Positions 18,191-34,544 of a DNA stretch of 64,000 nt are shown here, piece by piece (the stretch's first letter is position 1; every line of letters starts with the position of its first letter). Origin of the DNA: Euzebya pacifica (GTDB lineage Bacteria; Actinomycetota; Nitriliruptoria; Euzebyales; Euzebyaceae); contig NZ_CP031165.1 of the NCBI RefSeq assembly GCF_003344865.1, forward strand, positions 124,001 to 188,000, read 5' to 3'. The notes below the pieces were generated by a model that saw only the letters and a list, made by a program, of their open reading frames with translations, ran no database searches and was not told the origin of the DNA. Position numbers and translations under genes: made by a program.

Positions 18191-19330
18191 TCAGCGGGTG
18201 ATCGTCCAGACGACGGTCGCCGGATGGTCCGCGGGGTTGGCCCAGCCGTCGATGACCGCGGCGTCCAGCACGATGGCGTCGCCGGCCTGCAGGGTCTCGG
18301 TGGCCTTGCCGATCTCGAGGTCCAGCATCCCGTCGCGCAGCACCACCGTTTCGGTGCCCTTGCCGGGGAACAGGGGGCCTCGTCCCCTCGCCCGTGGGTC
18401 GACCCTGACCTCCCATGCGGTGCTGCCGGGGCTGGCGACCAACCGGCGGCCGGTGACCCCCGTGGCCAGGGGCGTTGCCTCCTCCCCGGTCCTGCGGCCG
18501 ATGTGGTACCCGTCTGTTGCGTCCTCGTCGGGACCGACCGGCACACCGAGTGCTTCCCACAGGCGCAGCACGGTTTCGCCCGACACCCCACGCACCCCGC
18601 GTTCGGCCTGTGACAGCGCCGACGGGCTGATGCCGATCCTCCGCGCGAGCTCCGCCTGGCCGACGCCGCGGCCGGTCCGGAGCTGGCGGATGGTCTCGCC
18701 CAGGCGGGTGCCGTTGCTCGCGCCGGATGTCATGTCGACGAGGACGCCGTCGTGCAGGGTCGCCTCGAGGGTCCGTCCGACCACGTGGGCTGGTCGTCCT
18801 GCGGCCTTCTCGACGGTCACGAGCAGGCGCTCCTCGGTCCCGTCGACGGTGGCGACGACCTGGGTCACGTCGCGCAGCCGACGGAGGAATCGCTCGTCGT
18901 GGCCGCTGCGGCGGAGGATCCACAGCGCGATGCTGCGACGGCGGTACAGCCGGGGACAGCCGACCAGGAAGAGGTCCAGCGCCGTCTGGCTGCCCCAGGT
19001 CGAGGCGACGCCGGTCAACGTGTCCACGATCACCCGTGCGTCGGTACCCACCAGCTCGTCGGCCCGGTCGAAGGCGGCTCGCGCCTCCTCCGCGGGAGTG
19101 GTTGCGTCGGTCCACGCGAGTACCGCCCGCGCCGCGTCGGGTTCGTGCCGGCCGGACGTGTCGACGATCACGAGCTGCTCGCGATCCGATGCCCGGACGC
19201 AGGCGTCGACGAACCAGTCGATCGGCGTGCCGTCGCCGACCAGCAGCACCAGGTTGTCGCCGATGGCGATGCCGTCGAGCAGCTCGTCGAAGGCGGGGAC
19301 GCCGCTGGTCAGCAGGGGAGGGGCAGCCAT
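18191..19330 (-). CDS. Three-domain regulator: degenerate KaiC/RecA-like, XRE HTH, cupin
   Basis: Residues 1-200 follow the KaiC/RAD55 design ([20 protein letters not shown], then a hydrophobic strand), but the Walker A position reads [10 protein letters not shown], without GKT/S; VIVDT and later strands remain. Residues about 205-262 are an XRE helix-turn-helix ([20 protein letters not shown]). Residues about 300-379 are a cupin ([27 protein letters not shown]). XRE-cupin regulators commonly sense small molecules; the extra RecA-like part, unlikely to hydrolyse ATP, is unusual. The ATG at 19330 gives the KaiC-like start. It sits 25 bases after the FrnE-like gene and upstream of the GreA-like gene. 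Confidence 0.75.
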
Positions 19331-19355
19331 CGGGCGACGTGTGTGGTGGCGGGGG

Positions 19356-20093
19356 TCAGCTGGCGACCGCGCAGCCATCGACCCCGCAGGTGTCGCCCGC
19401 GTGCTCGTGGTCGGCGTGACTCGCGGCCGAGGCGGTGTCCTCGGTACGCGCGGCCCAGGCCTGCTCCAGCGCCTGCAGCAGCACCTCCGTAGGCTGTGCA
19501 CCCGAGACGCCCATCCGGCGGTCGAGTACGAAGAAGGGCACACCGGAGATGCCGTACTCCACGGCCTGGTCCTCGTCGGCTCGGACGGCGTCGGCGAAGT
19601 CGTCGGTGGCGAGCATGGTCCGAACCTCCTCGGCATCCATGCCGGCGTCGGCGGCCAGGCGAACCAGCACGTCGTGGTCGCCCACCTCCTCGCCCTCGGA
19701 GTGGTAGGCGTCGAGGAAGCGGTCCTTCACCTCGTGCTGCAGCCCGCGCTCGGCGGCGAGGTGCAGCACCCGGTGGGCGTCGAAGGTGTTGCCCGGCTTC
19801 ACGATGTCGAAGCGGAAGTCCAAGCCCTCCGCTGCGCCCTGGTCGACCATGCGATCGATCATCGCCTGGGCCCGGTCGGTCGTGGTGCGGTACTTGGTCG
19901 CCAGCATGGCTGCGTAGTCGCCGTCCCGGCTGGCCGGCGCATGCCGGTCCAGCTCGAAGCTGCGCCACCGCACCGTGACCTCGTCGGCGTGCCCGAAGGC
20001 GGCGAGCGCACGTTCGAACCGCACCTTGCCGATCGCGCACCACGGGCACACGACATCCGACCAGATCTCCACGTCCATCATGCGGCCCATCAT
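19356..20093 (-). CDS. FrnE-like DsbA-family oxidoreductase
   Basis: The 245-residue thioredoxin-fold protein of the DsbA/FrnE branch has its CxxC in [12 protein letters not shown] and the cis-Pro segment [10 protein letters not shown]. After the core, the C-terminus adds a His-rich linker and CGVDGC, a C-x4-C motif; a second C-x4-C pair is the feature described for Deinococcus FrnE, a cytoplasmic disulfide isomerase linked to oxidative stress. No signal peptide is present, consistent with cytoplasm. The first ATG at 20093 is used; ATG at 20078 (MDVEIWSD) is equally possible. It is first in the minus-strand set with the XRE and Gre genes. Confidence 0.85.
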
Positions 20094-20207
20094 GACGTGC
20101 CGTGCAACGCGGTGGTGCGCCCGCGGCTCCGCTGGGGGGGCTCAGGTGGGGGCCGGAACAGCCGATGGATGAGGGCGTCATTCCGCCCCTCCGAGACCGG
20201 AGCGTCC

Positions 20208-21752
20208 GTGCTCAACCGTGCCACCATCTCGACCCGGCTCGCTGCCCTCACCGCTGTTGCGCTTGCCGGCCTGCTCGTCGTCGTCACCTTCGGGCTGCTC
20301 GGCACCCGCGGCGACATGCTGGAGGCCCGTCGCGTCAAGACGCAGGAGCACACCGAGCTGGCGTTGTCACTGATCACCCACTTCCATGCCCTCGAGGCGT
20401 CCGGGACGATGACCCGCGAGTCAGCGCAGCAGGCGGCCGCGGACGCCGTCCGTGACCTGCGATACGACGGCACCGAGTACTTCTGGATCAACGACACCAC
20501 CCCGACGGTGGTCATGCACCCCATCAAGGCCGAGCTCGAGGGGCAGGACGTCTCGATGCTGGAGGATGCCGACGGGACGCGCTTGTTCGTGGAGTTCGTC
20601 GACGTCGTCGAGGCGGACGGGGCCGGCTTCGTGGACTACCTGTGGCCCAAGCCCGGCGAGGAGGACGCGCAGCCCAAGGTCAGCTACGTGACCGCCTTCG
20701 AGCCCTGGGACTGGGTTGTCGGGACCGGCATCTACATCGATGACATCGACACGCAGTTCTGGGCGAAGGTGCGCTCCTTCAGCCTTCCGGGGTTGTTCAT
20801 CATGGCCGTGGTCGGTGGCCTGAGCCGGTGGATCGGCCGTCGGCTGGCCCGCGACATCGCCCGACAGGCCAAGGAAGTCCACGAGGCCTCCGAGGAGCTG
20901 TCGGCCTCGAGTGTCCAGGTCGACGGCGCGTCGGCGGAGACAACCCTCAAGGCGCGTCGGGTCGGGGCATCCGCGGATGACGTCCACGGTCACCTCGCCA
21001 CGGTGGCCACCGGTGTGGAACAGCTCAACGCCTCGGTCGCCGAGATCGGCCGGGCAGTCACGAGCGCATCCCGGGTCGCCGACGGCGCCGTCGCGGAGAC
21101 CACGGCCACGCGTGACGCGATCGACCGGCTCGGCGCGAACTCCGTGGAGATCGGGAAGGTCGTGGAGGTCATCGGCGCCATCGCCGACCAGACGAACCTG
21201 CTGGCGCTGAACGCCACCATCGAGTCGGCTCGTGCCGGCGTGGCGGGCAGGGGGTTCGCGGTCGTGGCCAGCGAGGTCAAGGACCTGGCCCGTGAGACGG
21301 CCAACGCGACCCAGCAGGTGGCCGCCCAGATCGGGGCGATCCAGGACGACACCGAGGAGGCCGTTCGGGCGATCGGCCGCATCGCCGAGGTCATCACGCA
21401 GGTGGCGGAGACCCAGCAGACGATCGCTGCCGCAGTCGAGGAACAGCAGGTGACGACCGCGGAGATCTCCCGCAGCGTGAGCACGGTTGCCCACCGTTCC
21501 TCGGCGATCGCCGACGACGTCAACGCCACGGCCCGCACCGCCGAGCACACCGCGGACGTGGCGGCGGGAGTCCGACTCACTGCCCAGCGTCTGCTGACCG
21601 TTGCTGATGGGCTGAACCAGCTGGTGGGGCTGGGCGACGCGGACGTCGACGCCTCACGCGGACCGGACGACGAGCCGCACGACACCAATCCGGTCGAGGA
21701 GGACTCCACGTCGGTGGATCCGAGGTCCACCGACGTGCTCAGCAGCGTCTGA
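20208..21752 (+). CDS. Methyl-accepting chemotaxis protein with single Cache domain
   Basis: The 514-residue product has a membrane segment at residues about 10-30, then an extracytoplasmic sCache_2-type sensor ([45 protein letters not shown]), and a second segment [14 protein letters not shown]. The cytoplasmic signalling domain contains the conserved hairpin tip [19 protein letters not shown]. The sensor likely binds small organic acids or similar ligands. GTG at 20208 follows CGGAG with 5-6 bases spacing; ATG at 20169 would add 13 residues. No CheA/CheW or flagellar genes are in the window, so its output partner is elsewhere. Confidence 0.88.
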
Positions 21753-21754
21753 CG

Positions 21755-22183
21755 TCAGGACAGGGCGGCGTCGAGGGTGATCTCGGCGTTGCCGTTGAAC
21801 AGCTGGGACACCGGGCAGCCGTTCTTCGCGGCCTGCGCGGCGGCCTCGAACGCTTCCGCGTCCATCCCGTCGACCCGGGCGCGCACGGTGGGCGCGACGG
21901 TGGTGATCCTCACCGTGGTGGTGTCCAGCGTGACGGTGGCGCGGGTCTCGATGTTCTGCGGTGTGCCGCCGGCCTTGTCGATTTCGTTGGACAGCGCCAT
22001 GGAGAAACAGGAGCTGTGCGCGGCGGCGAGCATCTCCTCGGGGCTGGTCTTGCCGTCGGGCGACTCGGCCCGGGCCGGCCAGGACACGTCGAAGGTGCCG
22101 ATGCCGGAGGAGGCGAACTCGGTCCGCCCCTTCCCCTTGGCAAGTGCGCCTTCCCATTCGGTGCGTGCGGTGCGGTCGGTCAT
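21755..22183 (-). CDS. OsmC/Ohr-family peroxiredoxin
   Basis: The 142-residue product has both peroxidatic-type cysteines in context: AAHSSCFSMALS and KNGCPVSQLFNG. These thiol peroxidases reduce organic or inorganic hydroperoxides and act as dimers in the cytoplasm. Length is standard. The ATG at 22183 follows GAAAGGATCGATC, a good ribosome site. The stop is 3 bases from the convergent chemoreceptor stop. A 17-bp tandem repeat lies 22 bases upstream of the start. Confidence 0.9.
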   Translation of the reverse strand: MTDRTARTEWEGALAKGKGRTEFASSGIGTFDVSWPARAESPDGKTSPEEMLAAAHSSCFSMALSNEIDKAGGTPQNIETRATVTLDTTTVRITTVAPTVRARVDGMDAEAFEAAAQAAKNGCPVSQLFNGNAEITLDAALS

Positions 22184-22204
22184 CGGTGATCGATCCTTTC
22201 GGGG

Positions 22205-22238
22205 GCTGGTCTGTCAGAGGAGCTGGTCTGTCAGATGA
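22205..22238. repeat. 17-bp tandem repeat upstream of osmC-like gene
   Basis: GCTGGTCTGTCAGAGGA is followed at once by GCTGGTCTGTCAGATGA (one mismatch). It lies between divergent genes (OsmC on minus, single-pass protein on plus) in a 248-base gap with no other clear feature. It could be a tandem regulator site or a leader duplication. Confidence 0.6.
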
Positions 22239-22431
22239 ACTGGCCCTTCGGGTGCGTGCACCGGGTTTGCTACCCGCACCCCGTGACCTGACACGCGAGG
22301 CGTCGTGCGCAGGGCCACGCACGATGCACATCGTTGCACAGCAGCCTGCTGGTTCGTCTCGGCTCGGAAGGGGAAACGTGCGGTGGCGAGTCCGCTTCGA
22401 GGACTCACCGACCGAAACGGGAGGGACCCCC

Positions 22432-22905
22432 ATGAGCAGCTACGACAACCCCCGCGCTCCGCGCTCCGACGTCGACGACCCACCGAGGGTCGAGCGGCTG
22501 GACGACCCCAGGGGTCCCTACGACCCCGACCCGCTGGTCGACCCAGTCGGCCACGTCGACCCGGCCGATCCGGTGGCCCGTGCCCACGACTCGAAAGCGG
22601 CCCGCACGGTGCCGATCCCGCGGACCGACGTGGGTGATCGACCGGTCCACGCCGGGGACCGCCCGGACATCGACCACCGGGAGACCCCCGAGGTCGTCAA
22701 GGACCTGCGCGAACCCGACAACCGGGCGAAGCTGCTGCTCCTGATCGCTGGGCTGAGTGCCCTGACCTTCATCCTGGTGCTCGTGAACACCATCACCCTG
22801 CAGAGCCAGGGTGGCGACGAGCCGATCCTCGTGGACGGCGTCCCCTGCCTCGTCGACGAGGCTGCCGGGGAAGGCGAGGAGGCCGTCCTCTACTGTCAGC
22901 GCTGA
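22432..22905 (+). CDS. Single-pass membrane protein with long acidic cytoplasmic head
   Basis: I do not recognise the family. The 157-residue product has a polar Asp/Pro/Arg-rich N-terminal part of about 95 residues, one membrane helix (AKLLLLIAGLSALTFILVLV), and a short outer tail with two cysteines (GVPCLV and LYCQR) that could form a disulfide. The ATG at 22432 follows GGGAGGG with normal spacing. A strong hairpin follows, so it is probably transcribed alone. It might scaffold or signal at the envelope; nothing more can be said. Confidence 0.65.
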   Translation: MSSYDNPRAPRSDVDDPPRVERLDDPRGPYDPDPLVDPVGHVDPADPVARAHDSKAARTVPIPRTDVGDRPVHAGDRPDIDHRETPEVVKDLREPDNRAKLLLLIAGLSALTFILVLVNTITLQSQGGDEPILVDGVPCLVDEAAGEGEEAVLYCQR

Positions 22906-22941
22906 CGCGACTGGCGTCGCACCGACGCACGAACGACGACG

Positions 22942-22966
22942 GAGGGCAGCCCCCAGGGCTGCCCTC
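22942..22966 (+). terminator. Terminator hairpin
   Basis: GAGGGCAGCCC (22942-22952), loop CCA, GGGCTGCCCTC (22956-22966): a perfect 11-bp stem 37 bases after the preceding stop. It separates the single-pass gene from the polypeptide/metalloprotease cluster. Confidence 0.8.
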
Positions 22967-23111
22967 GGTCATGTCTGTGACGGTTCGCAGGATTCACTAG
23001 TTAGCACCGTCCGGTCAGCGGGTATCCGGTCCGCTGCGCTCGTCGATCGACGGGCGCGTGACGAACGGGGTCGCGTTCCCCGTCGGGATGTCCGAACACG
23101 AGGAGCACAAC

Positions 23112-23942
23112 ATGCATGACCGCCTGCCCGCACAGGGCGCCCGCCTCTCCCGCGCCGAGCTGGACGCCGAGATGGCCCAGCCGTTGCCGCACAAGGAGGT
23201 GCTGTCCCTGCTGAACCTCAACGTCGACCTGGACCTGATGCTGGACCTGGCCGCACCGATCGACCTGGCCGTGGCGGCCAACGCCAACGTGGCGGCCCCG
23301 ATCGACGCCGCGGTGGCGGCCGACGTCCTGACGGTCGACTCGATCTCGCAGTCGATGGGCACCCAGAACGCCACGATCGAGCAGACCATCTCCGGTGAGG
23401 CTCTGGCCGAGGCGCCCCAGTCCGCCGTGGTCGACCAGACCGGTGGCGGGACGAGCGGTGGGACCGACGGCGGCATGGTCGCCCCGCGCAGCTTCGATGT
23501 CGTGCAGCCTGCGACCGGCGACGTGACCGACCCGGTCGGCGGCGCGGTCGGCGACGTGACCGACCCCGTCGGCGATGCGACCGGCGATGTGACCGGTGCC
23601 GCTGACGACCTGACCGACGTCGTGGGCGAGGCCGCCCAGGACCTCGGCGGTGCCGTGACCGACGCCGTTGGACAGCTCGACACCAGCAACCTGCTGCAGG
23701 ACGGGCTGCTGAACGTCGACGTGAACGCCAACCTCGACGCCGCCCTTGCTGCGCCGGTGGCCGGCGCCATCGCGGCCAACGCCAACGTCGCGGCTCCGAT
23801 CACCGCGGCGGTCTCCGCCAACATCGGTGCCGTGGCATCCGAGGCGACCGCCGTCACCGACCAGACGGCCGTCATCACCCAGAACCTGGACGACGTCGTG
23901 GCCGAGGCTGTTGCCGACCAGGACGCCGAGGTCATCCAGTAG
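23112..23942 (+). CDS. Repetitive acidic Ala/Val/Asp-rich polypeptide, candidate substrate of the neighbouring protease and transferases
   Basis: I do not recognise a family. The 276 residues contain no Cys, Tyr or Trp and a single Lys. A short charged leader (ending MAQPLPHKEVLSLLNL) is followed by two similar blocks: VAANANVAAPIDAAVAADVL near residue 55 and IAANANVAAPITAAVSANIG near residue 220. Between them are GDVTDPVG repeats and a Gly/Thr linker. There is no signal peptide or membrane helix. The ATG at 23112 has AGGAG 6 bases before it, a strong site. Its stop is 22 bases before the PqqD/M50 gene. Position and composition suggest a processed or modified precursor, or a secreted structural polymer; this is inference. 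Confidence 0.7.
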   Translation: MHDRLPAQGARLSRAELDAEMAQPLPHKEVLSLLNLNVDLDLMLDLAAPIDLAVAANANVAAPIDAAVAADVLTVDSISQSMGTQNATIEQTISGEALAEAPQSAVVDQTGGGTSGGTDGGMVAPRSFDVVQPATGDVTDPVGGAVGDVTDPVGDATGDVTGAADDLTDVVGEAAQDLGGAVTDAVGQLDTSNLLQDGLLNVDVNANLDAALAAPVAGAIAANANVAAPITAAVSANIGAVASEATAVTDQTAVITQNLDDVVAEAVADQDAEVIQ

Positions 23943-23964
23943 CTCCGGCTCCCCTGCGCATCCG

Positions 23965-26667
23965 ATGACCACCACCGCCACCCCCCGGCCGCCCGAGCGC
24001 GCGTCGGGGGTCGACCTCCTCGGCCCCATGCAGGGGTCGGGGTACGTCCGCCCGCCCATGCTCGTCCGTCGACTCGACGGCCAGACCGTCCAGCTCAGCC
24101 CGCTGCTGTACGAGGTGCTGTCCGCCATCGACGGTCAGCGCAGCTGGGACGAGGTGGCGGCGGTGGTGGCCGAACGCGTTGTCCGGCCGGTCACGGCGGA
24201 CGACGTGGAGTACCTCGCGCAGGAGAAGCTGTCCCCGGCTGGCCTGCTGGTCCGTCCCGACGGATCGCAGCCGGCACCCCGCCGCAGCAACCCGCTGCTC
24301 GGCCTGCGCTGGCGGTTGGTGGTCAGCAACCCGCGGGTGACCCGGTGGCTGGTCCGCCCGTTCGCGTGGCTCTTCGCGTGGTGGGCGGTCATTCCGGTGC
24401 TCGTCGCGTTCGGCGTCGCGATCTGGTGGACCATGGTCGAACGGGGCCTCGGCGTGGCGATGGACGAGGTCCTCCAGCGCCCCGAGATGTTGCTGCTGGT
24501 CGTGGCGAGCACCGTTGCCTCCGCGGCGTTCCACGAGCTCGGGCACGCCGCAGCCTGCCGCTACGGCGGTGCCACTCCCGGTGCGATGGGGGCAGCCCTG
24601 TACCTGGTCTGGCCGGTCTTCTGGACCGACGTGACCGACTCCTACCGGCTGGATCGACGAGGACGACTGCGGGTCGACCTCGGCGGGCTGTACTTCAACG
24701 TCCTCTTCGCCCTCGGCGCGGTCGGGCTCTGGGCCGTGACCCGCCAGGACGCCCTCCTCGTCCTCCTCCCGGTCCAGCTGCTGCAGATGCTGCGCCAGCT
24801 GATCCCCCTCGTCCGGTTCGACGGATACCACATCCTCGCTGACCTGACCGGGGTACCCGACCTGTTCGCCCGCATCAAGCCGATCCTCCTCGGCGTGGTC
24901 GGCCGGGGCGACGGATCGCAGCAGGCGCTCCGCCCCTGGGTCCGGGCGGTCGTCACGGGCTGGGTGCTGGTCGTCGTGCCGTCGCTCCTCGCCCTGCTCG
25001 TCCTTGCCGTCATCGGGCTCCCGTCGGTGCTGTCCTCCGCGGGGGAGAGCATCGCGTTCCACGTGACACAGCTGCGGGCCAACCTGGACGCCGGAGACGC
25101 CGTCCGTGTCAGCCTCGGCGTCGTCGCGATCCTGACCGTCGGACTCGTCCCCCTCGGCATGGTCTACCTGCTCGGTCGCGTGTCGACCCGGAGCGCCACC
25201 GCCCTGTGGGGTGCCACCGAGGGCCGGCCTGCCGCACGGGGGCTGGCCAGCGTCGCAGTCCTCGGCCTGCTCCTCGCGACGACGACCAGCTGGATGCCGG
25301 CACCCCAGCCGGCCGGCCCGATGCTGGCGTCCTCCCTGCCGCTCCCGCGAGCCGCCGAGCCCACACCGGCGACCATCGACCCCGACCGCTGGACGGTCGC
25401 GGTCGAACCGGCAGCCACCGAACGTGTGGCGGCCCCCGGACGTCCGTTGGCGGACTCCACCGCGCGCTGGCTCGTGCTGTCGGGCGAGCGTCTGGCGTCC
25501 CTCCGCGGCAACCGAGCCACGAGCGCGCAGCCGACGGCCGCCGTGGTCGTGGCCCCGGTCGACGACTGGCCGTTCCCGTTCGACCCGCCGGCAGATGCCC
25601 GACCGGGCGACAACGTCGTGCTCGCCGTCAACACCGTCGACGGGTCCTCCATCACCGACTTCGTCGCCCAGCTGTCGTGGCTGGCCGACGAGCCCGTGGT
25701 CGACGAACGCAACGTGGCCTACGCCGCGGCCAGCTGCGTCGACTGCAGCAGCCGAGCGGTCGCCTTCCAGGTGATCGTGGCGACCGGCCGCGTCGACGTG
25801 GCCGTCCCCAACAACCAGGCGGTGGCGGTCAACCACATCTGTGTCGGCTGCACCACCGAGGCGCTGGCGGTCCAGATGATGGTGACGCTGGAGGAGATGC
25901 CGTCGGTGGCGACCATGGAGGCCGTCGAAGCGCTGTGGGCCCAGGTCGACGCCCTGCAGTCCACCGTCGAGTCGGCCGCGATCGAGGTCGTGCACGGCGA
26001 GCTCGTGCGCATCCAGGACGAGATCCTGACCACCCTCGGTGTCGAGCTGCCCACGGCCGACGCCGACGGCCCGGAGGAGCTCGCCGGCCCGACCTACGCC
26101 GAACGGCGCGGCGACGGCACGCTCGAACCCGCCCCGATCGGTCGCCGGACCGCGGCGGCCACGACCAGCTCCGCCGGACCGGTGGAGCGGCGAGGCGCCG
26201 AAGCCGCCATCGACACCGACAGCCTGGACCAGCTCGAGACGCCCGACCCGTCGGACGTCGTCGACCCCGCTGATCTGGCCGATGCCGCTGATGTGACCGA
26301 TGCCGCTGACGTCGTCGGGCGTGCCGGTTCCGCTGGTCGGAGCGACACCGTTGATGCCGGTGGGGTCGTGGAGGAGGACGTCGTGGAGGAGGACGTTGTC
26401 GACCAGGACGTTGTCGAGGAGGACGTTGTCGACCAGGACGTCGTCGACGGGGACGTCGTCGACCAAGGTGCCGTCGAGACCCCGGAACCTGTACGAGACG
26501 CCGCGGACGACCCCGCCGATGACACCGTCGACGCACCCGCCAGCGATGAGGAACCGGCCACGATCCCGCCCGCCGCGGACCCGCCGCCGGTGGCGCCGAT
26601 CGGGCGCCAGGGCCTCGTCGTGACCGCGGACTCGCCGTCGAGCTCCGGCGAGCGAGTGGCGATGTGA
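23965..26667 (+). CDS. PqqD-like/M50 metalloprotease fusion with outer double-CxxC domain
   Basis: The 900-residue membrane protein starts with a PqqD-like segment (residues about 25-90: PPMLVRRLDGQTVQLSPLLY, DEVAAVVAERV). Next is a polytopic M50 site-2-protease-type core with HELGH at residues 190-194 and RFDGYHILADLTG as the likely third-ligand segment. After the last helix, an outer domain (about 480-710) carries C591-x2-C594 and C626-x2-C629. The tail is acidic with a tandem VVEED/VVDQD repeat near 800-835. The PqqD-M50 pairing is known from the YydH-type peptide proteases of RiPP pathways. ATG at 23965 is 22 bases after the polypeptide gene. Substrate not shown. Confidence 0.82.
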   Translation: MTTTATPRPPERASGVDLLGPMQGSGYVRPPMLVRRLDGQTVQLSPLLYEVLSAIDGQRSWDEVAAVVAERVVRPVTADDVEYLAQEKLSPAGLLVRPDGSQPAPRRSNPLLGLRWRLVVSNPRVTRWLVRPFAWLFAWWAVIPVLVAFGVAIWWTMVERGLGVAMDEVLQRPEMLLLVVASTVASAAFHELGHAAACRYGGATPGAMGAALYLVWPVFWTDVTDSYRLDRRGRLRVDLGGLYFNVLFALGAVGLWAVTRQDALLVLLPVQLLQMLRQLIPLVRFDGYHILADLTGVPDLFARIKPILLGVVGRGDGSQQALRPWVRAVVTGWVLVVVPSLLALLVLAVIGLPSVLSSAGESIAFHVTQLRANLDAGDAVRVSLGVVAILTVGLVPLGMVYLLGRVSTRSATALWGATEGRPAARGLASVAVLGLLLATTTSWMPAPQPAGPMLASSLPLPRAAEPTPATIDPDRWTVAVEPAATERVAAPGRPLADSTARWLVLSGERLASLRGNRATSAQPTAAVVVAPVDDWPFPFDPPADARPGDNVVLAVNTVDGSSITDFVAQLSWLADEPVVDERNVAYAAASCVDCSSRAVAFQVIVATGRVDVAVPNNQAVAVNHICVGCTTEALAVQMMVTLEEMPSVATMEAVEALWAQVDALQSTVESAAIEVVHGELVRIQDEILTTLGVELPTADADGPEELAGPTYAERRGDGTLEPAPIGRRTAAATTSSAGPVERRGAEAAIDTDSLDQLETPDPSDVVDPADLADAADVTDAADVVGRAGSAGRSDTVDAGGVVEEDVVEEDVVDQDVVEEDVVDQDVVDGDVVDQGAVETPEPVRDAADDPADDTVDAPASDEEPATIPPAADPPPVAPIGRQGLVVTADSPSSSGERVAM
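26367..26465 (+). repeat. 15-bp tandem repeats in the protease gene tail
   Basis: Units of the type GAGGAGGACGTTGTC and GACCAGGACGTTGTC follow each other about six times and encode VVEED/VVDQD pentads. Length may vary between strains. The tail is outside the conserved protease and CxxC domains. Confidence 0.75.
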
Positions 26668-26731
26668 CCTCGCACCTCGCTGCGCCGGAAGGGGTGTGAG
26701 CAGCCCCGGAACAGGGGTATCGCTTGGGCCC

Positions 26732-27868
26732 ATGCAGCCGCTCGTCGTCGCCTCCGTTCCCGCCCGCCACGTCTACACCCGACACCTGGCGCACCCGGCG
26801 GTACCCGTGGCCCGGGTGGCGACTCCGGCGGCGACGTATCGCGCCACGCAGATGATCTCGGCGGAATGGGTGCAGGTCCACGCCGAGGGCATCGACGTCG
26901 CACACGTCCACTTCGGATTCGGTGACGTCACCGACCGGGACTGGCGGGAGTGGCGGGCAGCCCTCGCCGCCCATCGCATCCCGCTCGTGTACACCGTCCA
27001 CGACCTCGACAACCCGCACGTCGACGCACAGGACCGCCATCACCGACAGGTCGCCTTCCTGTGCCGTACCGCCGACGAGGTCATCACCCTGACCGCCGCC
27101 GCCGCGGACCGCGTCCGACAACGAACCGGCCGTCGCGCCACCGTGATCCCCCACCCCCACGTCGTCGACCTGGCCACCATCGCGGCCACCGACCGACCGC
27201 GACGCGAGACCTTCACCGTGGCCATCCACGGCAAGGACCAGCGGGCCGGCATCGACGCCCGTCCGTTCGCCGAGGCCGTCCTCGACGTCATGGCCGACCG
27301 TCCCGACGTGCACCTCCGGCTGGACGTGGCGCCGGAGCTGGTCGACCGCGCCCCGGAGGAGTACCGCCACCTGGCCGCCGCAGCCGCCCACCCTCGGGTC
27401 GCGTTCCACCGCACGGGCTGGCTGGACGACCACGAGCTATGGCGGTACCTGGCCGACGTCGACCTGGTCGTCCTTCCCTACCGGCTGGGCACCCACTCGG
27501 GATGGGCGGAAGCGTGCGTCGACCTCGGCACCCCCGTCGCCGCCCCGGCCCACATGCCGATCGTCGACCAACACCAGGCGCCGAGGATCCTGCCCCTGAC
27601 GATCGACGCGTCGGGTCGGCCCGCCCCCGATGCCCTGGCCGGCATCATCGACCGCCTGCGCCACGGCAGCCGACCCGTACCGATCTCGCCACGCTGGCGT
27701 GACGTCCAGCGGCTCGACATCGCCCGCGCCCACGAGGCGGTCTACCGGCGGGCCATCGAACGGCTCGCCGAGCACGCCGACCCGTCAGCCGACGAGGAGC
27801 CCCTCGGACGCGTCATCGACCTCACCGGGGTCGACGTGTCCGAGCCGACCACCGCGGCAGTCCCGTGA
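26732..27868 (+). CDS. GT4-like glycosyltransferase
   Basis: The 378-residue product has a GT-B layout: an N-terminal half with AHVHFGFGD and LVYTVHDLDNPH, a linker with VIPHPH, and a C-terminal half with FHRTGWLDDHELWRYLADVD and VVLPYRLGTHSGWAEACVD, the family-4-like donor site region. It would transfer a sugar from an activated donor; acceptor unknown. The ATG at 26732 (MQPLVVASVPARHVY) opens the first strand; GTG at 26696 with GGAAGG close by is an alternative. The stop overlaps the sulfotransferase start (GTGA at 27865-27868), so the two act in one operon. Confidence 0.8.
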   Translation: MQPLVVASVPARHVYTRHLAHPAVPVARVATPAATYRATQMISAEWVQVHAEGIDVAHVHFGFGDVTDRDWREWRAALAAHRIPLVYTVHDLDNPHVDAQDRHHRQVAFLCRTADEVITLTAAAADRVRQRTGRRATVIPHPHVVDLATIAATDRPRRETFTVAIHGKDQRAGIDARPFAEAVLDVMADRPDVHLRLDVAPELVDRAPEEYRHLAAAAAHPRVAFHRTGWLDDHELWRYLADVDLVVLPYRLGTHSGWAEACVDLGTPVAAPAHMPIVDQHQAPRILPLTIDASGRPAPDALAGIIDRLRHGSRPVPISPRWRDVQRLDIARAHEAVYRRAIERLAEHADPSADEEPLGRVIDLTGVDVSEPTTAAVP

Positions 27869-28701
27869 TCCGCCACGTCGAGACCCGACGGTCGGGGTCC
27901 ACGCGGCCCGCGCGCTCCCTGCTGCTGTGCGGAGTGCAACGGGTCGGCACGACCATGCTGTGTGACCTGCTGACCACGAGCGATCGCCTGGGCTACCCCA
28001 AGGAGTTCTTCCTGCCGCAGGCCCGGCCCGCGTTCCTCCGCGCGTGGAACTTCCCCGACACCGTGGCCAACTCGACCTTCCTGCATCGGATCCTGCACGA
28101 CGGCACCACCCGCAACGGGGTCTTCGCCGCCAAGATCATGGCGGACCAGCTCGACGAGGTCGACCGGGTCACCGACGGCGCCGGCCTGCGAGCATTCCCC
28201 GACCCACTCGCCGTCGTGCTGACCCGCGACGACAAGGTCGCTGCCGCCGTCTCACAGTGGCGGGCCGAGGTGACCGGTGAGTGGTCCAGCCGCGCCGAAC
28301 GGGCCGCCCACCCCATCGACCCGGCGGCGGCCGACATCGACCGGATCAGCGAGCTGCACGACCGCAAGCACGAGGAGGAGTCGGCCTGGCGACGGCGGCT
28401 GTCGCTGGACGAGATCCCGTGGATCGAAGCGGCCTACGAACGCTGGTCCCCCCGGCCGTTGCGGCTGATCGGCGACATCGCCGACCGCCTGGACGTCGAC
28501 CTCGTCGGCGCCTCGGCCACCACGGCCCTTCGACCCCAGCGCGACCACGCGAGCGCCCTCGTGCTGGATCGCTGGGAGCAGTCGACCACCGGGTGCCGAC
28601 GGTGTGCGGACGCCCGACAGCGCCTGCAGCGCAGCCCCGGCCCTCGCCCCCACCGGTCCACCGGCCCACGCCCACCCGCAGTGAGGACACGTCAGCGATG
28701 A
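27865..28701 (+). CDS. Stf0-type sulfotransferase
   Basis: The 278-residue product carries the PAPS-binding loop LLCGVQRVGTTMLCDLL followed by GYPKEFF, and the Stf0-family segment VVLTRDDKVAAAVSQWRAEV with GEW. Mycobacterial Stf0 sulfates trehalose; relatives sulfate other glycans. About the last 50 residues are Pro/Arg-rich and unlike the family. Starts by GTG overlapping the glycosyltransferase stop and ends with TGA overlapping the next ATG (ATGA at 28698-28701). Tight coupling to a glycosyltransferase suggests that the added sugar is the sulfate acceptor. The neighbouring polypeptide has no Tyr, so Tyr sulfation of it is excluded. Confidence 0.85.
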   Translation: MIRHVETRRSGSTRPARSLLLCGVQRVGTTMLCDLLTTSDRLGYPKEFFLPQARPAFLRAWNFPDTVANSTFLHRILHDGTTRNGVFAAKIMADQLDEVDRVTDGAGLRAFPDPLAVVLTRDDKVAAAVSQWRAEVTGEWSSRAERAAHPIDPAAADIDRISELHDRKHEEESAWRRRLSLDEIPWIEAAYERWSPRPLRLIGDIADRLDVDLVGASATTALRPQRDHASALVLDRWEQSTTGCRRCADARQRLQRSPGPRPHRSTGPRPPAVRTRQR

Positions 28702-30170
28702 GCAGCCACGAACCCGTCTGGACCCCCCACCCCGCACCCTCGGTCCCCGACCGCCTGCCCGACCGCGTCCAGGTCGTCGTCATCGGTGCCGGGATCGCCG
28801 GGCTGTCGACCGCGGTCCAGCTGGGGCGGGCCGGTGTGGAGACCCTGCTGGCCACCGCCGAGGTGGTCGGGGGCGGCGTGACCGGCCGCTCCAACAGCAA
28901 GGTCACGGCGCTGCACCAGATGATCTACGCCGACCTGGTCGACCGCCACGGGATCGAGACGGCGCGGGCCTACGTCGAGGCCAACACCGACGCGCTCGGC
29001 TGGTTGCGTGACCTGGCCGGGGACGTGTGGCAGCCGCGTGACGCGGTCACCGTCGCCCGCGACGTCGACGAACGCGAGCAGCTCGGACAGGAGATCGACG
29101 CCGCGCAGCGAGCCGGTCTGGACGTCCTCGACAGTGCCTCGGACGACTGGCCCGACCCCCACCGCGGCATGCGCCTGTCGGGTCAGGGACAGGTCGACCC
29201 CGTGGCGCTGGCCCTTCGCATGCGCGACCGGCTGGGGGAGACGGTGACCGTCGCCGAACACACCAGGGCCACCGGCCTGCACCCCGCACCGGGCGGTCGC
29301 ATCGTCCGCTTCGGCGACCGCTCGGTCCGCGCGGCGCACGTGGTCGTCGCCACCGGCATGCCCGTGTTCGACCGTGGCGGCTACTTCGCGCTGTGCGAAC
29401 CCGAGTCCAGCTACCTCGTCGCCATGCGGCACCCGGGGGAGGGCGGCGACATGATGATCACCGTCGGCGACCCCAAGGTGTCGATCCGCTGGGTGGAGGG
29501 GGCGACCCCCGACGATCGCCTGGTCCTGGTCGGCGGCCAGCCCCACCGCACCGGCGCGGGTGGCCTGACCAGCCAGCGCTACACCGCCCTCGAGGCGTGG
29601 GCCCGCGACAACCTCGACGGGGTCGGTGAGGTCGTGGCTCGCTGGAGTGCCATGGACTACATGTCCCCGGACCGCCTGCCGTTCGCCGGCCCGCTGAACC
29701 GGGTGGGCGACGGCAGCTTCGTCATCACCGGCATGTCCAAGTGGGGGTTCACGCTCGGGGCAGCCTGCGCCGCCACGGTGTCCCGGGCGATCCTTGGGGA
29801 GGAACCCACCACGTTCGACCGCGCCGTCCACCCGCGTCGGCTTCCCGACCTGTCCGGCGTGAAGTCCGTCGTGCAGTCAAACGCCCAGGTCGGCACGCAC
29901 ATGACCGGCGGGTGGGCGGGTGCGGTCCTCAAGCGCCTCCCCGACGAGCTGGCCGAGGGCGACGGCGTCGTCGGCCGCAAGGGCATCGACGTCGTCGCGT
30001 CCTGCCGGGTCGACGGCGAACGCCACGACAACCGGGCCGTCTGCCCCCACCTGGGTGGCATCGTCACATGGAACGACGGCGACCGCACCTGGGACTGCCC
30101 GCTGCATGGCAGCCGGTTCGACCACGACGGAGCCGTGCGCCACGGCCCCGCCAACCGCCCCCTCGGCTGA
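28698..30170 (+). CDS. FAD-dependent oxidoreductase with C-terminal Rieske domain
   Basis: The 490-residue product joins a DadA-like FAD domain (QVVVIGAGIAGLSTAVQLGR at residues about 24-43; SYLVAMRHPGEGGDMMITVG; KWGFTLGAACAATV) to a Rieske [2Fe-2S] domain near residues 435-475, with CPHLGG and CPLHGSRFD giving the C-x-H...C-x2-H ligands. Such fusions oxidise amines or similar substrates and pass electrons internally. The ATG at 28698 overlaps the sulfotransferase stop, so it belongs to the same operon. A terminator hairpin contains its stop codon. Its role with the two transferases is unclear; it may oxidise the modified product. Confidence 0.88.
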   Translation: MSSHEPVWTPHPAPSVPDRLPDRVQVVVIGAGIAGLSTAVQLGRAGVETLLATAEVVGGGVTGRSNSKVTALHQMIYADLVDRHGIETARAYVEANTDALGWLRDLAGDVWQPRDAVTVARDVDEREQLGQEIDAAQRAGLDVLDSASDDWPDPHRGMRLSGQGQVDPVALALRMRDRLGETVTVAEHTRATGLHPAPGGRIVRFGDRSVRAAHVVVATGMPVFDRGGYFALCEPESSYLVAMRHPGEGGDMMITVGDPKVSIRWVEGATPDDRLVLVGGQPHRTGAGGLTSQRYTALEAWARDNLDGVGEVVARWSAMDYMSPDRLPFAGPLNRVGDGSFVITGMSKWGFTLGAACAATVSRAILGEEPTTFDRAVHPRRLPDLSGVKSVVQSNAQVGTHMTGGWAGAVLKRLPDELAEGDGVVGRKGIDVVASCRVDGERHDNRAVCPHLGGIVTWNDGDRTWDCPLHGSRFDHDGAVRHGPANRPLG

Positions 30171-30175
30171 GGGGG
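30158..30175 (+). terminator. Terminator hairpin at the end of the transferase operon
   Basis: CCCCCTC, loop GGCT, GAGGGGG: a perfect 7-bp stem. The stop codon TGA of the Rieske/FAD gene lies inside it. A 19-base portion (30160-30178) is repeated exactly at 30345-30363. Confidence 0.65.
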
Positions 30176-30178
30176 CGC
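30160..30178 (+). repeat. 19-bp direct repeat, left copy
   Basis: CCCTCGGCTGAGGGGGCGC, identical at 30345-30363, 185 bp away. The two copies bracket the intergenic repeat region between two convergent genes. Confidence 0.8.
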
Positions 30179-30207
30179 CTCGGCCCCCAACCCATCACCC
30201 CCCAACC

Positions 30208-30338
30208 GACGGATTCGCCTCGCGATTCGGGCTCAGATCGAGCTCGCGAGGCGATCCCGTCGCACCGGGTCCACGGATGCGGAGGTTTTACGACGGGCCC
30301 GAGGCGATTCCGTCGCGATGCGAGGCGATTCCGTCGCG
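30208..30338. repeat. Cluster of four 18-bp repeats in the convergent gap
   Basis: CGAGGCGATTCCGTCGCG occurs at 30300-30317 and 30321-30338, with one mismatch at 30246-30263 (GATC for GATT), and in inverted form at 30208-30225 (CGACGGATTCGCCTCGCG). The first two can pair as a long hairpin with a loop of about 20 bases. The 200-base gap has no gene. Confidence 0.8.
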
Positions 30339-30344
30339 GAGGCA

Positions 30345-30363
30345 CCCTCGGCTGAGGGGGCGC
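30345..30363 (+). repeat. 19-bp direct repeat, right copy
   Basis: CCCTCGGCTGAGGGGGCGC, ending 7 bases before the SulP stop codon. It keeps a 5-7 bp hairpin and may serve as the terminator for the convergent SulP gene. Confidence 0.8.
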
Positions 30364-30370
30364 AGGCCGG

Positions 30371-31906
30371 TCAGTGGCCGGCGGAGACCACGTCGGTGGT
30401 GCGGGAGTGCAGGCGCTCGGCGTGCTCGTTGAGCCCGACCACGTCGGCGAAGATGCCGCGTTCGGCGAACTTGGCCACGACGGTGTCGAGGGCGACGACC
30501 GCGGACGTGTCCCAGACGCGGGCCTCCGACAGGTCGATCTCGACCTGTGAGACCTTGACGGCGTCGTAGTCGAAGGCGTGGATCAGCTCGTTGGTCGAGG
30601 CGAAGAACAGCTCGCCGCTGACGGCGTACAGCCGCTCGTGGCCGTCGGGGTCGACGACGCTGGTGACGTTGACGACGTGCACGACCTTGCGGACGAAGAA
30701 GACCGCGGACAGCACGACACCGGCGCCGACGCCGTAGGCCAGGTTGTGGGTCAGCACCACGATGCCGACGGTGACCGCCATCACGGCGGTCTCGGCCCGC
30801 GGCATGTGCTGCAGGGCGCGCGGCTTGATGCTGTTCCAGTCGAACGTGCCGATCGCCACCATGATCATCACCGCGACGAGCGCAGCCATCGGGATCGCGG
30901 CGACGAGGTCACCGAGGACGAGGATGAGGATCAGCAGGAAGACACCGGAGGCCAGCGTCGACAGGCGGGTCCGGCCGCCGGAACGGTGGTTGATCATCGA
31001 CTGGCCGATCATGGCGCAGCCGGCCATGCCGCCGAGGAACCCGGTGATGACGTTGGCGATGCCCTGTCCGCGCGACTCCATGTTCTTGTTGGAGTTCGTG
31101 TCGGTCATGTCGTCCAGCAGCTGGGCGGTCAGCAGGGACTCGAGCAGGCCGACCAGCGCCAGGGTGATGGAGAACGGCAGGATGATGCGGAGGGTCTCCA
31201 GCGTGAACGGCACGTCGGGCAGCGCCAGGCCGGGGAGCGTGTCGGGCAGCGCACCCATGTCGCCGACGGTCGGCAGGTCGATGCCGGCACCGATGGCCAA
31301 GCCGGACAGCGCGACGATCGCGACCAGCGGCGCGGGGACGGCCTTCGTGATGCGGGGCAGGCCGTAGATGATGACCAGGCCACCGGCGATGAACGCCAGG
31401 TTCATCGGCAGCATGGAGGCGGCGTCGGCCTCACCGGTCAGCAGGATGTGGGGAACCTGCGCCAGGAAGATGAGGATCGCCAGCGCGTTGACGAACCCGG
31501 TCATCACCGTACGGGGGATGAACCGCATCAACGAGCCGACGCCGAGGACGCCGAGGCCGATCTGCAGGACACCGGCCAGGACGGTGGCGGCGAAGAGGTA
31601 GCCCACGCCGTAGTCGGCGACGAGCGGGACGACGACGAGGGCCATCGCGCCGGTGGCGGCGGAGATCATGCCGCGACGTCCACCGGTCATGGCGATGACG
31701 ATGGCGATGGAGAAGGAGGCGTACAGACCGACCTTCGGGTCCACGCCGGCGATGATCGAGAACGAGATCGCCTCGGGGATCAGCGCCAGGGCGACGACCA
31801 GGCCGGACAGCAGGTCGGCCCTCGGGTTGCTCCGGATCGCGTCGCGCAGCTCGGCCACGACGGACCGGCGCACGCGCGCAGGGGAGATGGAGGGGAGGGA
31901 GGTCAC
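30371..31906 (-). CDS. SulP-family anion transporter with STAS domain
   Basis: The 511-residue transporter has the SulP N-terminal signature (RADLLSGLVVALALIPEAIS), about 12-14 membrane helices and GGMAGCAMIGQSMINHRSGG in the transport core. A C-terminal STAS domain covers residues about 410-500 (GELFFAS, VEIDLSEARVWDTSAVVALD). Family members import sulfate or bicarbonate, usually with Na or H. The substrate is not readable from sequence; the proximity of the sulfotransferase operon makes sulfate attractive. GTG at 31906 follows GAAGG with about 9 bases spacing. The leader (31907-32099) holds no clear riboswitch. Confidence 0.9.
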   Translation of the reverse strand: MTSLPSISPARVRRSVVAELRDAIRSNPRADLLSGLVVALALIPEAISFSIIAGVDPKVGLYASFSIAIVIAMTGGRRGMISAATGAMALVVVPLVADYGVGYLFAATVLAGVLQIGLGVLGVGSLMRFIPRTVMTGFVNALAILIFLAQVPHILLTGEADAASMLPMNLAFIAGGLVIIYGLPRITKAVPAPLVAIVALSGLAIGAGIDLPTVGDMGALPDTLPGLALPDVPFTLETLRIILPFSITLALVGLLESLLTAQLLDDMTDTNSNKNMESRGQGIANVITGFLGGMAGCAMIGQSMINHRSGGRTRLSTLASGVFLLILILVLGDLVAAIPMAALVAVMIMVAIGTFDWNSIKPRALQHMPRAETAVMAVTVGIVVLTHNLAYGVGAGVVLSAVFFVRKVVHVVNVTSVVDPDGHERLYAVSGELFFASTNELIHAFDYDAVKVSQVEIDLSEARVWDTSAVVALDTVVAKFAERGIFADVVGLNEHAERLHSRTTDVVSAGH

Positions 31907-32099
31907 AGCGAAAAGCCTTCGGTGGCGGGGTGTGGTGTGCGCACCTCGGCCAGCCGTGTCGTCGTTGACGACGGCGATGCGTGGAACTCAAGAACTAGAC
32001 GGCGTACGCGCCTGTACTCGATCGGCGCGCGAGCAGGATGACTGAGTGTATGGCCTGAAGTGACGCTGTGGTCCAGGCAGCCCGTCCATCCGCCGGGGG

Positions 32100-34544
32100 T
32101 CAGCCGGGAAGGATCGTGTCCACCGACGACGGCGTGATGGCGGCCTCGCCTCCCGCGAGGGCAATCCGGGTCACGTCGTGGTCGGCCATCCAGGCCATGG
32201 TGGCGTCGGTCGGCGCGGTGCCGTCGACCAGCAGCACGACGTCGCCGGCACGGGCAGCCGCGACGCCGACGGCCAGCGCGTCGGGGAAGTCGCGACCGGT
32301 GGCCAGCCACGTGCGGGTCGACTCCAGACCGAGCGCCAGGCTGGCGTCGGCGACGGCAGCGGAGGTGGCGTAGCGATCGGGACCGGCTAACCGGTCGGTC
32401 GTGCCCAGGGCGTCGGCGACCTGCGCCGACACCACTGACTCGCCGCCGACGACGGTCACCCGCGCCGGGGCCAGCATCGCCAGCGCGGCCGCGGTCGAGG
32501 CAGGCACCGACCCCGTGGGGCCACCGTCCACCAGCAGCAACGGCAGGCCGCCTCGGGCGGCCAGCGCCGACGCGGCAACGGCGTCGGCGAAGGCGTTCCC
32601 GTCGACGACCAGCACGCCGTCGGCGGCATCACCGACCTCGGCCGCCAGCAGCGCCGCGGTCTCGTACCGATCGCCCCCACCCACGCGGTGCACGACGAAT
32701 CCCGCCTCGACCAGCCCGACCTCGACGTCCTCGCCGATCGCCGCCGGCCCACCGACGAGCTGCACCTCGAGCGCGCGGAGGCGGATCAGCTCGGCCACGA
32801 CCGCCGGGTCCAGGGTGTCGCCGACGAGGAGGATCGGGCTGCCCAGCTGGAACGCCAGCGGGGCGGCGGCCAGCGCGTCGGCGAACCCGCCGGCGGAGGC
32901 CACGATCACGCGGTCGGCCGCCTCGAACGTTGCCCGTGACACCGCCAGCGCGGTCGCGACCCGCCCCGGGCCGGCGAGCCGCTGGACACGACCGGGCACG
33001 TCGACGGCAACGTGCGCACGATCGGTGGCGCCCGTGTCGTCGGTCACCGTCACCACGATCGTCCGGGGACCGGGGTCGTCGAAGGTGTGGCTGACCAGCC
33101 CGTCGGACAGGGCGTCGCCCTCGTCGGTTGTGCCGTCGTCCCAGTCGACCGACCAGCCCGTGATCGTGTGGTCGTCCCATCCGGCCCACGACCGGCGCAG
33201 GTCGACCGTGACCGCCCCCTCGTCGGTCACGATCGCCCGCGCCAGCGCGGTCGGCTCGATCGCGTCGTCGGCCGCCGGACACGCGTCGACGGGGCGTCGT
33301 TCGGCATCGCCGTCGGCCCGGGTCACCGCCGACAGGTCGAGGGTCTGGTCCGCCAGCGGAGTGCCACCTGCTGGTTGGGCAACCGTCGGTGCCGCCGTGG
33401 TCGTCCCGTCAGGGTCCAACCACGTCCCGAACCACTCCAGCGCGGCGGCCTGGGTCCACCAGCGGTCGTAGAAGTAGGCGTGGTTGCCGGCCTGCACCAG
33501 CACGGTGCGGTGGTGGGCCAGCGCGTTGGTGCGCGAGGCCAGCAGGGTCGCGTGGTAGTCCTGCACGAGCGTGTCGTCAGCGGCGTAGAAGTGCACCCCC
33601 GGCACCCGGTCGACGTCGGCGCCGCCGATGATGCCGTCGACCGCATCGACGGCCGAACCGTGGCGCAGGATGTGGTTGGGCGAGGCGCTGAACTCCTCCC
33701 GGGCCCCGACCTCGGCCAGGTAGCCGCAGGGGTCGGGGTTGTTGACGACCGTGGTCAGCAGCGCCGCCGTGGCCACGTCGTTGCGGGTCGACTGGGTTGC
33801 CTGGTCGGCCGGTCCCGAGAAGGTCATGACGGCGTCGATGATCCCGTCGTGGTCCTCGGCGAGCGCCAGCAGGGTGTTCTGCGCGCCCTCGGAGAACCCG
33901 AGCATGCCGATGGCGGGGACACCCCGGTCGTGCAGCTCCGTCGCCGCGGCGAGGAAGTCCTGCGCCTCCTTCCACCCGATCGTCTGGCCGCGCCGCTCCC
34001 CGGAGGGGTGCCACGAGCCGCCCCGGACCCACTCGCGACCCATGTCGCGATGGTCGGGGGCGATCACGCTGTAGCCGTTGGCGGCCAGGAACGCGGCGTA
34101 CCGGACGATCGAGTGCTTGCCGTTGGTGTTGAAACCCTGGGCCACCACGATCCCCGGGGCACCCGGGACGACCGAGATCATCGCGTGCAGCGGCGTGCCG
34201 TCGGCCGAGGTCAGCTGGATCCGGTCGAACGACGCCGGGAAGTCCGCGAACGGCGGCGCCAGATCCGCCAGCGGCGGCTGGTCGGGCACGGGGCCGCTGC
34301 AGCACGGGCCGCCGGCCGTGTCGGTCACCGGGAACGCCGCCGGGTAGTCGTCCTCACCGAACGCCGAGTCGGCGCCCTGCGGTTGGTACAGCGGGGTGTA
34401 CGGCAACGCCAGCAGCCGGTCCACCGTCTCGTCGACGGTGGTGTCGGCCGTCCCGCGCATGACGCCGGACAGGGGCGACACCGGTGGTGGTGGCGTGGCC
34501 CCCAGCAACAGCAGGGCAAGGACAAGGACTGCTGACCAGCGCAC
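32100..34544 (-). CDS. Secreted alpha/beta hydrolase with PKD domain and C-terminal CWB2 repeats
   Basis: The 814-residue product has a signal peptide (MRWSAVLVLALLLLGATPPP), an alpha/beta hydrolase domain at residues about 95-400 (IVVAQGFNTNGKHSIVRY, DHRDMGREW, nucleophile elbow GMLGFSEGAQ, and the late NHAYFYDRWW with the likely His), a PKD domain near 470-535 (SVDWDDGTTDEGDALSDGLV, SHTFDDPG), and three CWB2 modules to the end (ILLVGDTLDP, VQLVGGPAAIG, VTVVGGESVVS). It is probably an esterase or peptidase displayed on the cell wall. GTG at 34544 has AGGAG six bases before it. It is divergent from the Liv-type operon. Confidence 0.85.
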   Translation of the reverse strand: MRWSAVLVLALLLLGATPPPPVSPLSGVMRGTADTTVDETVDRLLALPYTPLYQPQGADSAFGEDDYPAAFPVTDTAGGPCCSGPVPDQPPLADLAPPFADFPASFDRIQLTSADGTPLHAMISVVPGAPGIVVAQGFNTNGKHSIVRYAAFLAANGYSVIAPDHRDMGREWVRGGSWHPSGERRGQTIGWKEAQDFLAAATELHDRGVPAIGMLGFSEGAQNTLLALAEDHDGIIDAVMTFSGPADQATQSTRNDVATAALLTTVVNNPDPCGYLAEVGAREEFSASPNHILRHGSAVDAVDGIIGGADVDRVPGVHFYAADDTLVQDYHATLLASRTNALAHHRTVLVQAGNHAYFYDRWWTQAAALEWFGTWLDPDGTTTAAPTVAQPAGGTPLADQTLDLSAVTRADGDAERRPVDACPAADDAIEPTALARAIVTDEGAVTVDLRRSWAGWDDHTITGWSVDWDDGTTDEGDALSDGLVSHTFDDPGPRTIVVTVTDDTGATDRAHVAVDVPGRVQRLAGPGRVATALAVSRATFEAADRVIVASAGGFADALAAAPLAFQLGSPILLVGDTLDPAVVAELIRLRALEVQLVGGPAAIGEDVEVGLVEAGFVVHRVGGGDRYETAALLAAEVGDAADGVLVVDGNAFADAVAASALAARGGLPLLLVDGGPTGSVPASTAAALAMLAPARVTVVGGESVVSAQVADALGTTDRLAGPDRYATSAAVADASLALGLESTRTWLATGRDFPDALAVGVAAARAGDVVLLVDGTAPTDATMAWMADHDVTRIALAGGEAAITPSSVDTILPG

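Follow-up and report, generated by a model that had tools for sequence, protein, structure and literature searches.

Which of the five genes between positions 23,112 and 30,170 of the Euzebya pacifica DNA analysed here (contig NZ_CP031165.1, positions 124,001 to 188,000 of the forward strand; 64,000 nucleotides, hereafter the window) belong together, and what do they make? They encode a 276-residue repeat protein, a PqqD-like domain fused to an M50 protease, a glycosyltransferase, a Stf0-type sulfotransferase and a flavin adenine dinucleotide (FAD) oxidoreductase with a Rieske domain. An earlier reading of the letters without database searches (the sequence-only reading) had taken all five for one modification and export system, in which the repeat protein would be the precursor handled by the protease and might carry a sulfated glycan. 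The arrangement it described was borne out by the open reading frames (ORFs): five genes on the + strand, 22 bases between genes 1 and 2, and 4-base overlaps between genes 3 and 4 and between genes 4 and 5. Judged by their linkage across genomes, the repeat protein and the protease constitute a real two-gene system, widespread and apparently undescribed, whose probable role is to make and assemble a product that is secreted or located on the cell surface. The three downstream genes stand outside this system.

Repeat protein and protease are encoded together in Actinomycetota and Chloroflexota

The analysis of linkage was based on 87 related M50 loci; an alignment search of genome contigs gave 80 named loci, out of at least 269 relatives. 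G014 and WHTG01000132 are one contig, so one of the 87 loci is counted twice. A contig scan with the window protease as a single sequence gave no match, its patterns being too specific, and the alignment query worked. The 87 loci belong to Actinomycetota and Chloroflexota, mostly to actinobacteria, and the taxa carrying the system include Mycolicibacterium, Arthrobacter, Nocardioides, Streptomyces, Solirubrobacter, Acidimicrobiia and Chloroflexota. Profiles for the precursor and for the double-CxxC domain, built from the first loci found, detected a precursor-type protein in 81/87 protease loci and a double-CxxC domain in 80/87. The precursor gene lies upstream of the protease gene and on the same strand in 72 loci, with a median gap of 17.5 nt. 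Six loci gave no precursor match: L010 and L015 hold divergent precursors whose leader is visible by eye, L084 and L095 are cut at a contig end, and L057 and L098 are unexplained. When 20 chosen genomes were searched with the precursor hidden Markov model (HMM), it matched eight of the nine that carry the M50 gene, always beside the protease, and none of the 11 that lack it; the ninth protease genome (G010), missed by the HMM, encodes a divergent leader peptide upstream. The protease itself is found in a minority of genomes: 7/41 had any match when 40 related genomes were searched (one of them marginal, covering only region 437-524), and it is present in 3/59 other genomes, a small sample.

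Besides the precursor, the M50 protein and the CxxC domain, no further neighbour recurs around the protease in the 87 loci, the remainder being generic or out-of-frame ORFs. No ABC exporter, regulator or sigma factor recurs near it, and no recurrent modifying enzyme was seen within 10 kb of these loci, a range that does not cover genes located elsewhere. Loci from other genera of the class (L012, L013) and from plasmids of Streptomyces (L009, L010) again have the protease gene behind one for a protein of similar N-terminus, and lack the glycosyltransferase, Stf0 and Rieske genes; the plasmid-borne proteases are annotated only as "hypothetical protein". Two of these loci also encode leucine-rich repeats of the LLDxGLLDxVTDLLD type upstream of the precursor: a large protein of about 1300 aa in L013 (4689-8591) and a partial ORF in L012 (8685-9035). 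Such proteins are absent from the window.

The protease combines a leader-recognition-like fold with a site-2 protease core

The AlphaFold2 model of the protease was built on 54 sequences, with a predicted local distance difference test score (pLDDT) above 85 over most ordered parts. In this model the N-terminal domain folds like RRE domains (RRE, RiPP recognition element; RiPP, ribosomally synthesized and post-translationally modified peptide) and the membrane core is of the site-2 protease (S2P) type. With VIA-align, the nearest matches to residues 10-99 include the TbiB1-leader complexes 5v1u (Z 8.2, root-mean-square deviation 3.1, 82 aligned) and 5v1v (Z 7.9) as well as the MibB and TruD RREs; the membrane core is nearest to RseP 7w6y (Z 8.1 over 130 residues) and S2P 3b4r (Z 7.2). 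Z values near 8 are moderate and some unrelated entries score equally high, and the domains agree with the sequence families. The HELGH motif (residues 190-194) lies inside helix 173-200, and the zinc-site residues and the cysteines of both CxxC pairs (C591/C594 and C626/C629) are invariant in 54 relatives. The fusion of a PqqD-like domain to an M50 protease, first noticed in the bare sequence, is confirmed by the RRE-like fold, the S2P-type core and the invariant HELGH. A disordered linker is predicted between the membrane core (120-443) and the beta-hairpin rungs (541-645) that hold the CxxC pairs.

The precursor joins a conserved leader to a core of regular glutamines

The proposal that the repeat protein is the precursor gained support from the linkage described above and from the RRE-like fold; its relation to the PqqD-M50 protein is that of a substrate-type partner. 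The leader motif common to the family, LSxEELxAExxxxLPD[RK]ExxSLL, extends from Chloroflexota to Streptomyces. The repetition recognized in gene 1 exceeds chance, as a 78-residue unit is present in two copies (33-110, 199-276). Glutamines Q85, Q91, Q103, Q251, Q257, Q270 and Q276 are invariant in 52 relatives and Q109 nearly so, all at regular spacing. In the clade of the window protein the core consists of this 78-residue unit, twice, with a low-complexity linker between the copies, and many precursors are proteins of 200-600 aa with two repeat units. The separate-gene clade, in which the CxxC domain has its own gene, usually carries two to four small precursor genes (about 65-80 aa) per locus, several of them near-identical paralogues, with cores such as NVAAPINAAVAANVLSDNSxAxAxAxQxxxIxQ (NVAAPINAAVAANVLSDNS...Q in one example). 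The window precursor ends in Q, and the last residue in its relatives is Q, N, T or others. Conservation across phyla is 0.64 for the core versus 0.58 for the leader. Pfam and NCBIfam searches of the precursors returned no family model, and no DNA-binding or regulatory family either; the Pfam search of window genes 1 and 2 matched no family.

The double-CxxC domain is related to the precursor core

Comparison of the profile of the small cores with that of the CxxC domain (hhalign) gave a probability of 83-86% and a score of 31.0, compared with at most 18.2 in 200 column shuffles that kept the composition and 15.2 for the reversed profile. The alignment pairs NVAAPINAAVAxNVLSDxSxAYANAxQ of the core with NVIVPQNIAIAVNYECxxCLTYALAVQ of the domain, the position of the first Cys being Ser in the core. 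A common spacing motif, chosen post hoc, is present in 30/30 small precursors and in 68/79 CxxC domains; all other ORFs of at least 100 aa lack it. By these comparisons the CxxC domain, three beta-hairpin rungs in the AlphaFold2 model, is homologous to the precursor core. A comparison between the Streptomyces-type core and the CxxC domain was discarded, one row of it having read through into other genes.

About 20 loci encode the CxxC domain in a gene of its own. The products mostly begin with a signal peptide (judged by eye), which places the domain, by prediction, outside the cytoplasm. The protease tree contains essentially one clade with a fused CxxC domain, and the long precursors are found in the same clade. 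Its sister, L062 (an Acidimicrobiia metagenome-assembled genome; 8431-12261), has its CxxC domain in a separate gene and encodes three precursors, two of them with a single copy of the larger unit; this locus looks like an intermediate between the separate-gene and the fused forms, as one event and not as replicated evidence.

Site-2 proteases act in regulated proteolysis, and the four invariant cysteines of an outer domain could sense redox state or metal outside the cell and control a regulated intramembrane cleavage of the repeat protein, that is, an envelope-stress or signalling function. This explanation is quite improbable: neither a regulator nor a sigma factor recurs near the protease, and the precursor matches no DNA-binding or regulatory family and has several near-identical paralogues.

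A proposed model of leader-guided export and assembly

The reading that we prefer, at a probability of roughly 50%, is leader-guided export and assembly, in which the exported core forms, outside the cell, a beta-solenoid or fibre like that of curlin, capped or nucleated by the CxxC domain. The repeat protein would be made with its N-terminal leader RLSRAELDAEMAQPLPHKEVLS, to which the cytoplasmic RRE/PqqD-like domain of the M50 protein would bind; the fused site-2 protease would then cut between leader and core in the membrane, releasing the core, and would probably also pass it out. Outside, the core units may adopt beta-solenoid rungs resembling those of curlin and, by stacking, build a fibre of the surface or matrix; the membrane-anchored CxxC domain, with Cys where the core mostly has Ser, may cap, nucleate or tether the assembly. 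The linkage of the genes, the common leader, the domain folds and the repeat homology between core and CxxC domain are the observed basis. The maturation part of this model is well supported, and the export route and the assembly are what we infer from them. Leader binding and cleavage follow from known relatives, by which the RRE-like domain would be expected to bind the leader, and the protease to set the core free. In daptides the leader is removed by a site-2 protease with a fused RRE (PMC10036551), and the M50 protease EpeP of epipeptides is thought to both cleave and export its peptide (PMC10885120).

The daptide and epipeptide protease models of NCBIfam match all 54 M50 members. The likeness to daptides (MpaP/DapP) includes the RRE fused N-terminally to a site-2 protease, a short leader motif in the precursor (EELxAExxxxLPD[RK]E here, ELExMEAP in daptides, PMC10036551), frequently several precursor genes at one locus, and a distribution mostly in Actinomycetota. 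In contrast to daptides, no MpaB, C, D, M or ABC transporter genes recur in the 87 loci, the precursors lack the invariant C-terminal Thr, reach several hundred residues and consist of beta-type repeats, and a CxxC repeat domain is added. No daptide-type decarboxylase, aminotransferase, methyltransferase or ABC transporter gene was found among ten flanking window genes. Membership in the daptides was consequently rejected, for these missing partner genes, for the absent Thr and for a score of about 103 bits (102.6-103.5) against daptide_HExxH (NF041824), below its cut-off of 300. Membership in the epipeptides (YydF/EpeX) was rejected likewise: the YydH/LiaK epipeptide protease model (NF058609) scores about 40 bits (40.6) with a cut-off of 225, the EpeP-type model covers only the M50 core, and no radical SAM epimerase is encoded among the flanking window genes tested.

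That the nearest protease families are daptide and epipeptide maturases, and that each locus of the separate-gene clade carries several small paralogous precursors, a feature of many RiPP clusters, would also fit a secreted bioactive peptide (a bacteriocin or a signal), the CxxC domain then being an immunity, chaperone or docking part. We consider this rather unlikely, since neither tailoring enzymes nor an ABC exporter nor other neighbours recur, many precursors are 200-600 aa long with two repeat units, and the core and the CxxC domain have a repeat in common. Across phyla, moreover, the core is at least as conserved as the leader, unlike the fast-changing core of an antimicrobial. The regular-Gln core, its conservation and the relatedness of the outer domain speak for a structural product that assembles and not for a toxin.

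Leader-guided assembly finds its closest parallels in the curli (CsgA/CsgB) and Fap (FapC/FapB) fibres. Curli subunits have rungs of the type N-x-hydrophobic-x-hydrophobic-x-Q (PMC10192328), and FapC has imperfect repeats, long variable disordered linkers and Asn/Gln networks (PMC12392863). The present system has imperfect beta repeats with regular Asn/Gln positions as in both, low-complexity linkers between the repeats as in Fap, and, as in both, a second protein or domain of the same repeat that could nucleate; it differs in having no Csg or Fap secretion genes nearby, maturation being assigned to an RRE-site-2 protease instead. By analogy, it resembles curli and FapC in logic, and by sequence it is a member of neither family. 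Tentatively, and with some doubt, it may represent a novel monoderm pathway to a functional amyloid-like surface fibre, using a RiPP-type leader, an RRE-fused intramembrane protease, neither tailoring nor a dedicated exporter, and a CxxC nucleator derived from the same repeat, that is, a counterpart of CsgB and CsgA joined to its own maturase.

Several results weigh against the assembly model. Cleavage, secretion and fibre are predictions drawn from sequences, models and analogy. The AlphaFold2 model of the precursor, with a short leader helix (residues 14-20) and two sets of strands, is of low confidence (pLDDT 58; predicted template modelling score, pTM, 0.29), and fold searches with it found no structural match; regular invariant Gln and predicted strands would suit a beta-solenoid, but they are accompanied by this low-confidence model. 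Pfam curlin or Fap repeats were not detected in the precursor up to E 10 (the sole match, at 0.16, is unrelated), and the Foldseek match between the M50 model and FapC (E 0.37) is not significant and was not counted. The coincidence of CxxC fusion and long precursors carries little independent weight, because both have essentially one evolutionary origin.

Maturation by an RRE-site-2 protease is already known; what is new is the repeat-protein substrate, the absence of tailoring enzymes from the loci seen and the related outer CxxC domain. The family was not described in the literature searched, with most subscription journals and the daptide-study supplements, which may list such RRE families, outside its scope. 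With this system, leader-RRE-site-2-protease maturation reaches beyond short modified peptides and includes repeat proteins without visible tailoring; if the assembly model is true, it would also be a new way to form protein fibres on the surface of actinobacteria, with the nucleator built in.

The transferase and Rieske genes stand apart from the two-gene system

Genes 3, 4 and 5 were assigned by Pfam (Glyco_transf_4, E 1e-7; Stf0 sulphotransferase, E 1e-21; DAO FAD oxidoreductase, E 4e-34, with Rieske, E 3e-8). The trio is found with the protease and in the same order in the congener G002, the only other such locus among the 87; the only other match near a protease is a glycosyltransferase (39%), about 8 kb away in L032. 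The congener G001 lacks the protease; its glycosyltransferase and Stf0 genes adjoin each other in another, unrelated cluster of glycan genes, and a different contig carries the Rieske homologue. In G003 neither transferase is present. The window pair of glycosyltransferase and Stf0 probably derives from a glycan cluster of the type found in G001. In this cluster (contig C94, L099; 6300-11100), the ORFs for GT2 and GT4 glycosyltransferases, for an Stf0 and for a second sulfotransferase-like protein are neighbours.

The glycosyltransferase probably starts at ATG 26732, because the G001 orthologue starts there, and 64 nt therefore separate it from the protease gene. This gap contains a conserved block with the core GGAACAGGGGTATCGCTTGGGCC, which sits in a longer stretch identical in G002, whose flanking DNA differs; the block is possibly a promoter or regulatory site.

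The sequence-only reading had proposed to check whether the M50 protein co-occurs with the repeat protein and the transferases: the repeat protein does, and the transferases are mostly absent. One pathway of five genes placing a sulfated glycan on the repeat protein, suggested by the close spacing on one strand and by the same order in G002, is therefore highly improbable: the trio accompanies the protease only in the window genome and in one other of the 87 loci, G001 keeps the pair without the protease and the Rieske homologue elsewhere, and the 64-nt gap with its own conserved block parts the two halves. Their distribution divides the five genes into two or more independent sets that are neighbours in a single lineage. 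A protease found mostly without the transferases is the outcome that reading had itself named as refuting, and it refutes the five-gene system; the two-gene part stands.

Feature coordinates and neighbouring sequences

Table 1 Features of the five-gene stretch; positions are those of the window.
Feature	Position	Strand	Basis or remark
Strong hairpin 5' of the repeat protein gene, terminator-like, no T-run	22942..22966	+	fold z -4.4; stem conserved in G002
Gene 1: repeat protein, candidate precursor, 276 aa	23112..23942	+	translation; relatives in 81/87 M50 loci
Leader RLSRAELDAEMAQPLPHKEVLS, conserved recognition motif	23142..23207	+	conserved from Actinomycetota to Chloroflexota
Core unit 1, beta-type repeat with conserved Q positions, residues 33-110	23208..23441	+	
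Low-complexity D/G/T-rich linker, residues 111-198	23442..23705	+	repeats; mostly pLDDT under 60
Core unit 2, duplicate of unit 1, residues 199-276	23706..23939	+	independent HMM match in the same ORF
Gene 2: PqqD/RRE-like domain, M50 site-2 protease, predicted extracytoplasmic double-CxxC domain and acidic tail, 900 aa	23965..26667	+	
RRE/PqqD-like winged-helix domain, residues 13-100	24001..24264	+	most blocks above 90 (AlphaFold2 pLDDT)
Membrane site-2 protease core with HELGH, residues 120-443	24322..25293	+	family models, structural matches
Double-CxxC domain, three beta-hairpin rungs, residues 541-645	25585..25899	+	model pLDDT about 90
Helical hairpin after the rungs, residues 648-691	25906..26037	+	AlphaFold2 model
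Low-complexity acidic tail, VVxEDVVxQD repeats, residues 692-900	26038..26664	+	
Conserved block core GGAACAGGGGTATCGCTTGGGCC before the glycosyltransferase	26708..26730	+	one place only in each of two congeners
Gene 3: glycosyltransferase (GT4 type), 390 aa from GTG 26696	likelier ATG 26732..27868	+	outside the core system
Gene 4: Stf0-type sulfotransferase, 278 aa	27865..28701	+	outside the core system
Gene 5: FAD oxidoreductase, C-terminal Rieske domain, 490 aa	28698..30170	+	outside the core system
Strong hairpin at the 3' end of gene 5, no T-run	30156-30177		fold z -2.9

Of the terminators supposed to flank the five genes, the strong hairpins were found (Table 1); both are missing from the list of the terminator scan because they lack a T-run. 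No Rfam family was found at positions 18000 to 34000 of the window. Shortly upstream, on the opposite strand, lie a DsbA-family oxidoreductase (19356-20093) and an OsmC-like protein (21755-22183), which do not recur near the protease elsewhere. A SulP-type sulfate permease (30371-31906) is convergent with the Stf0-containing genes, which may reflect chance or sulfate supply. In the gap after the Rieske gene (30206-30338), the sequence CGAGGCGATNCCGTCGC occurs in three exact copies and one inverted copy with two mismatches, compared with 0.5 copies expected across the whole window, and is possibly an intergenic repeat element.

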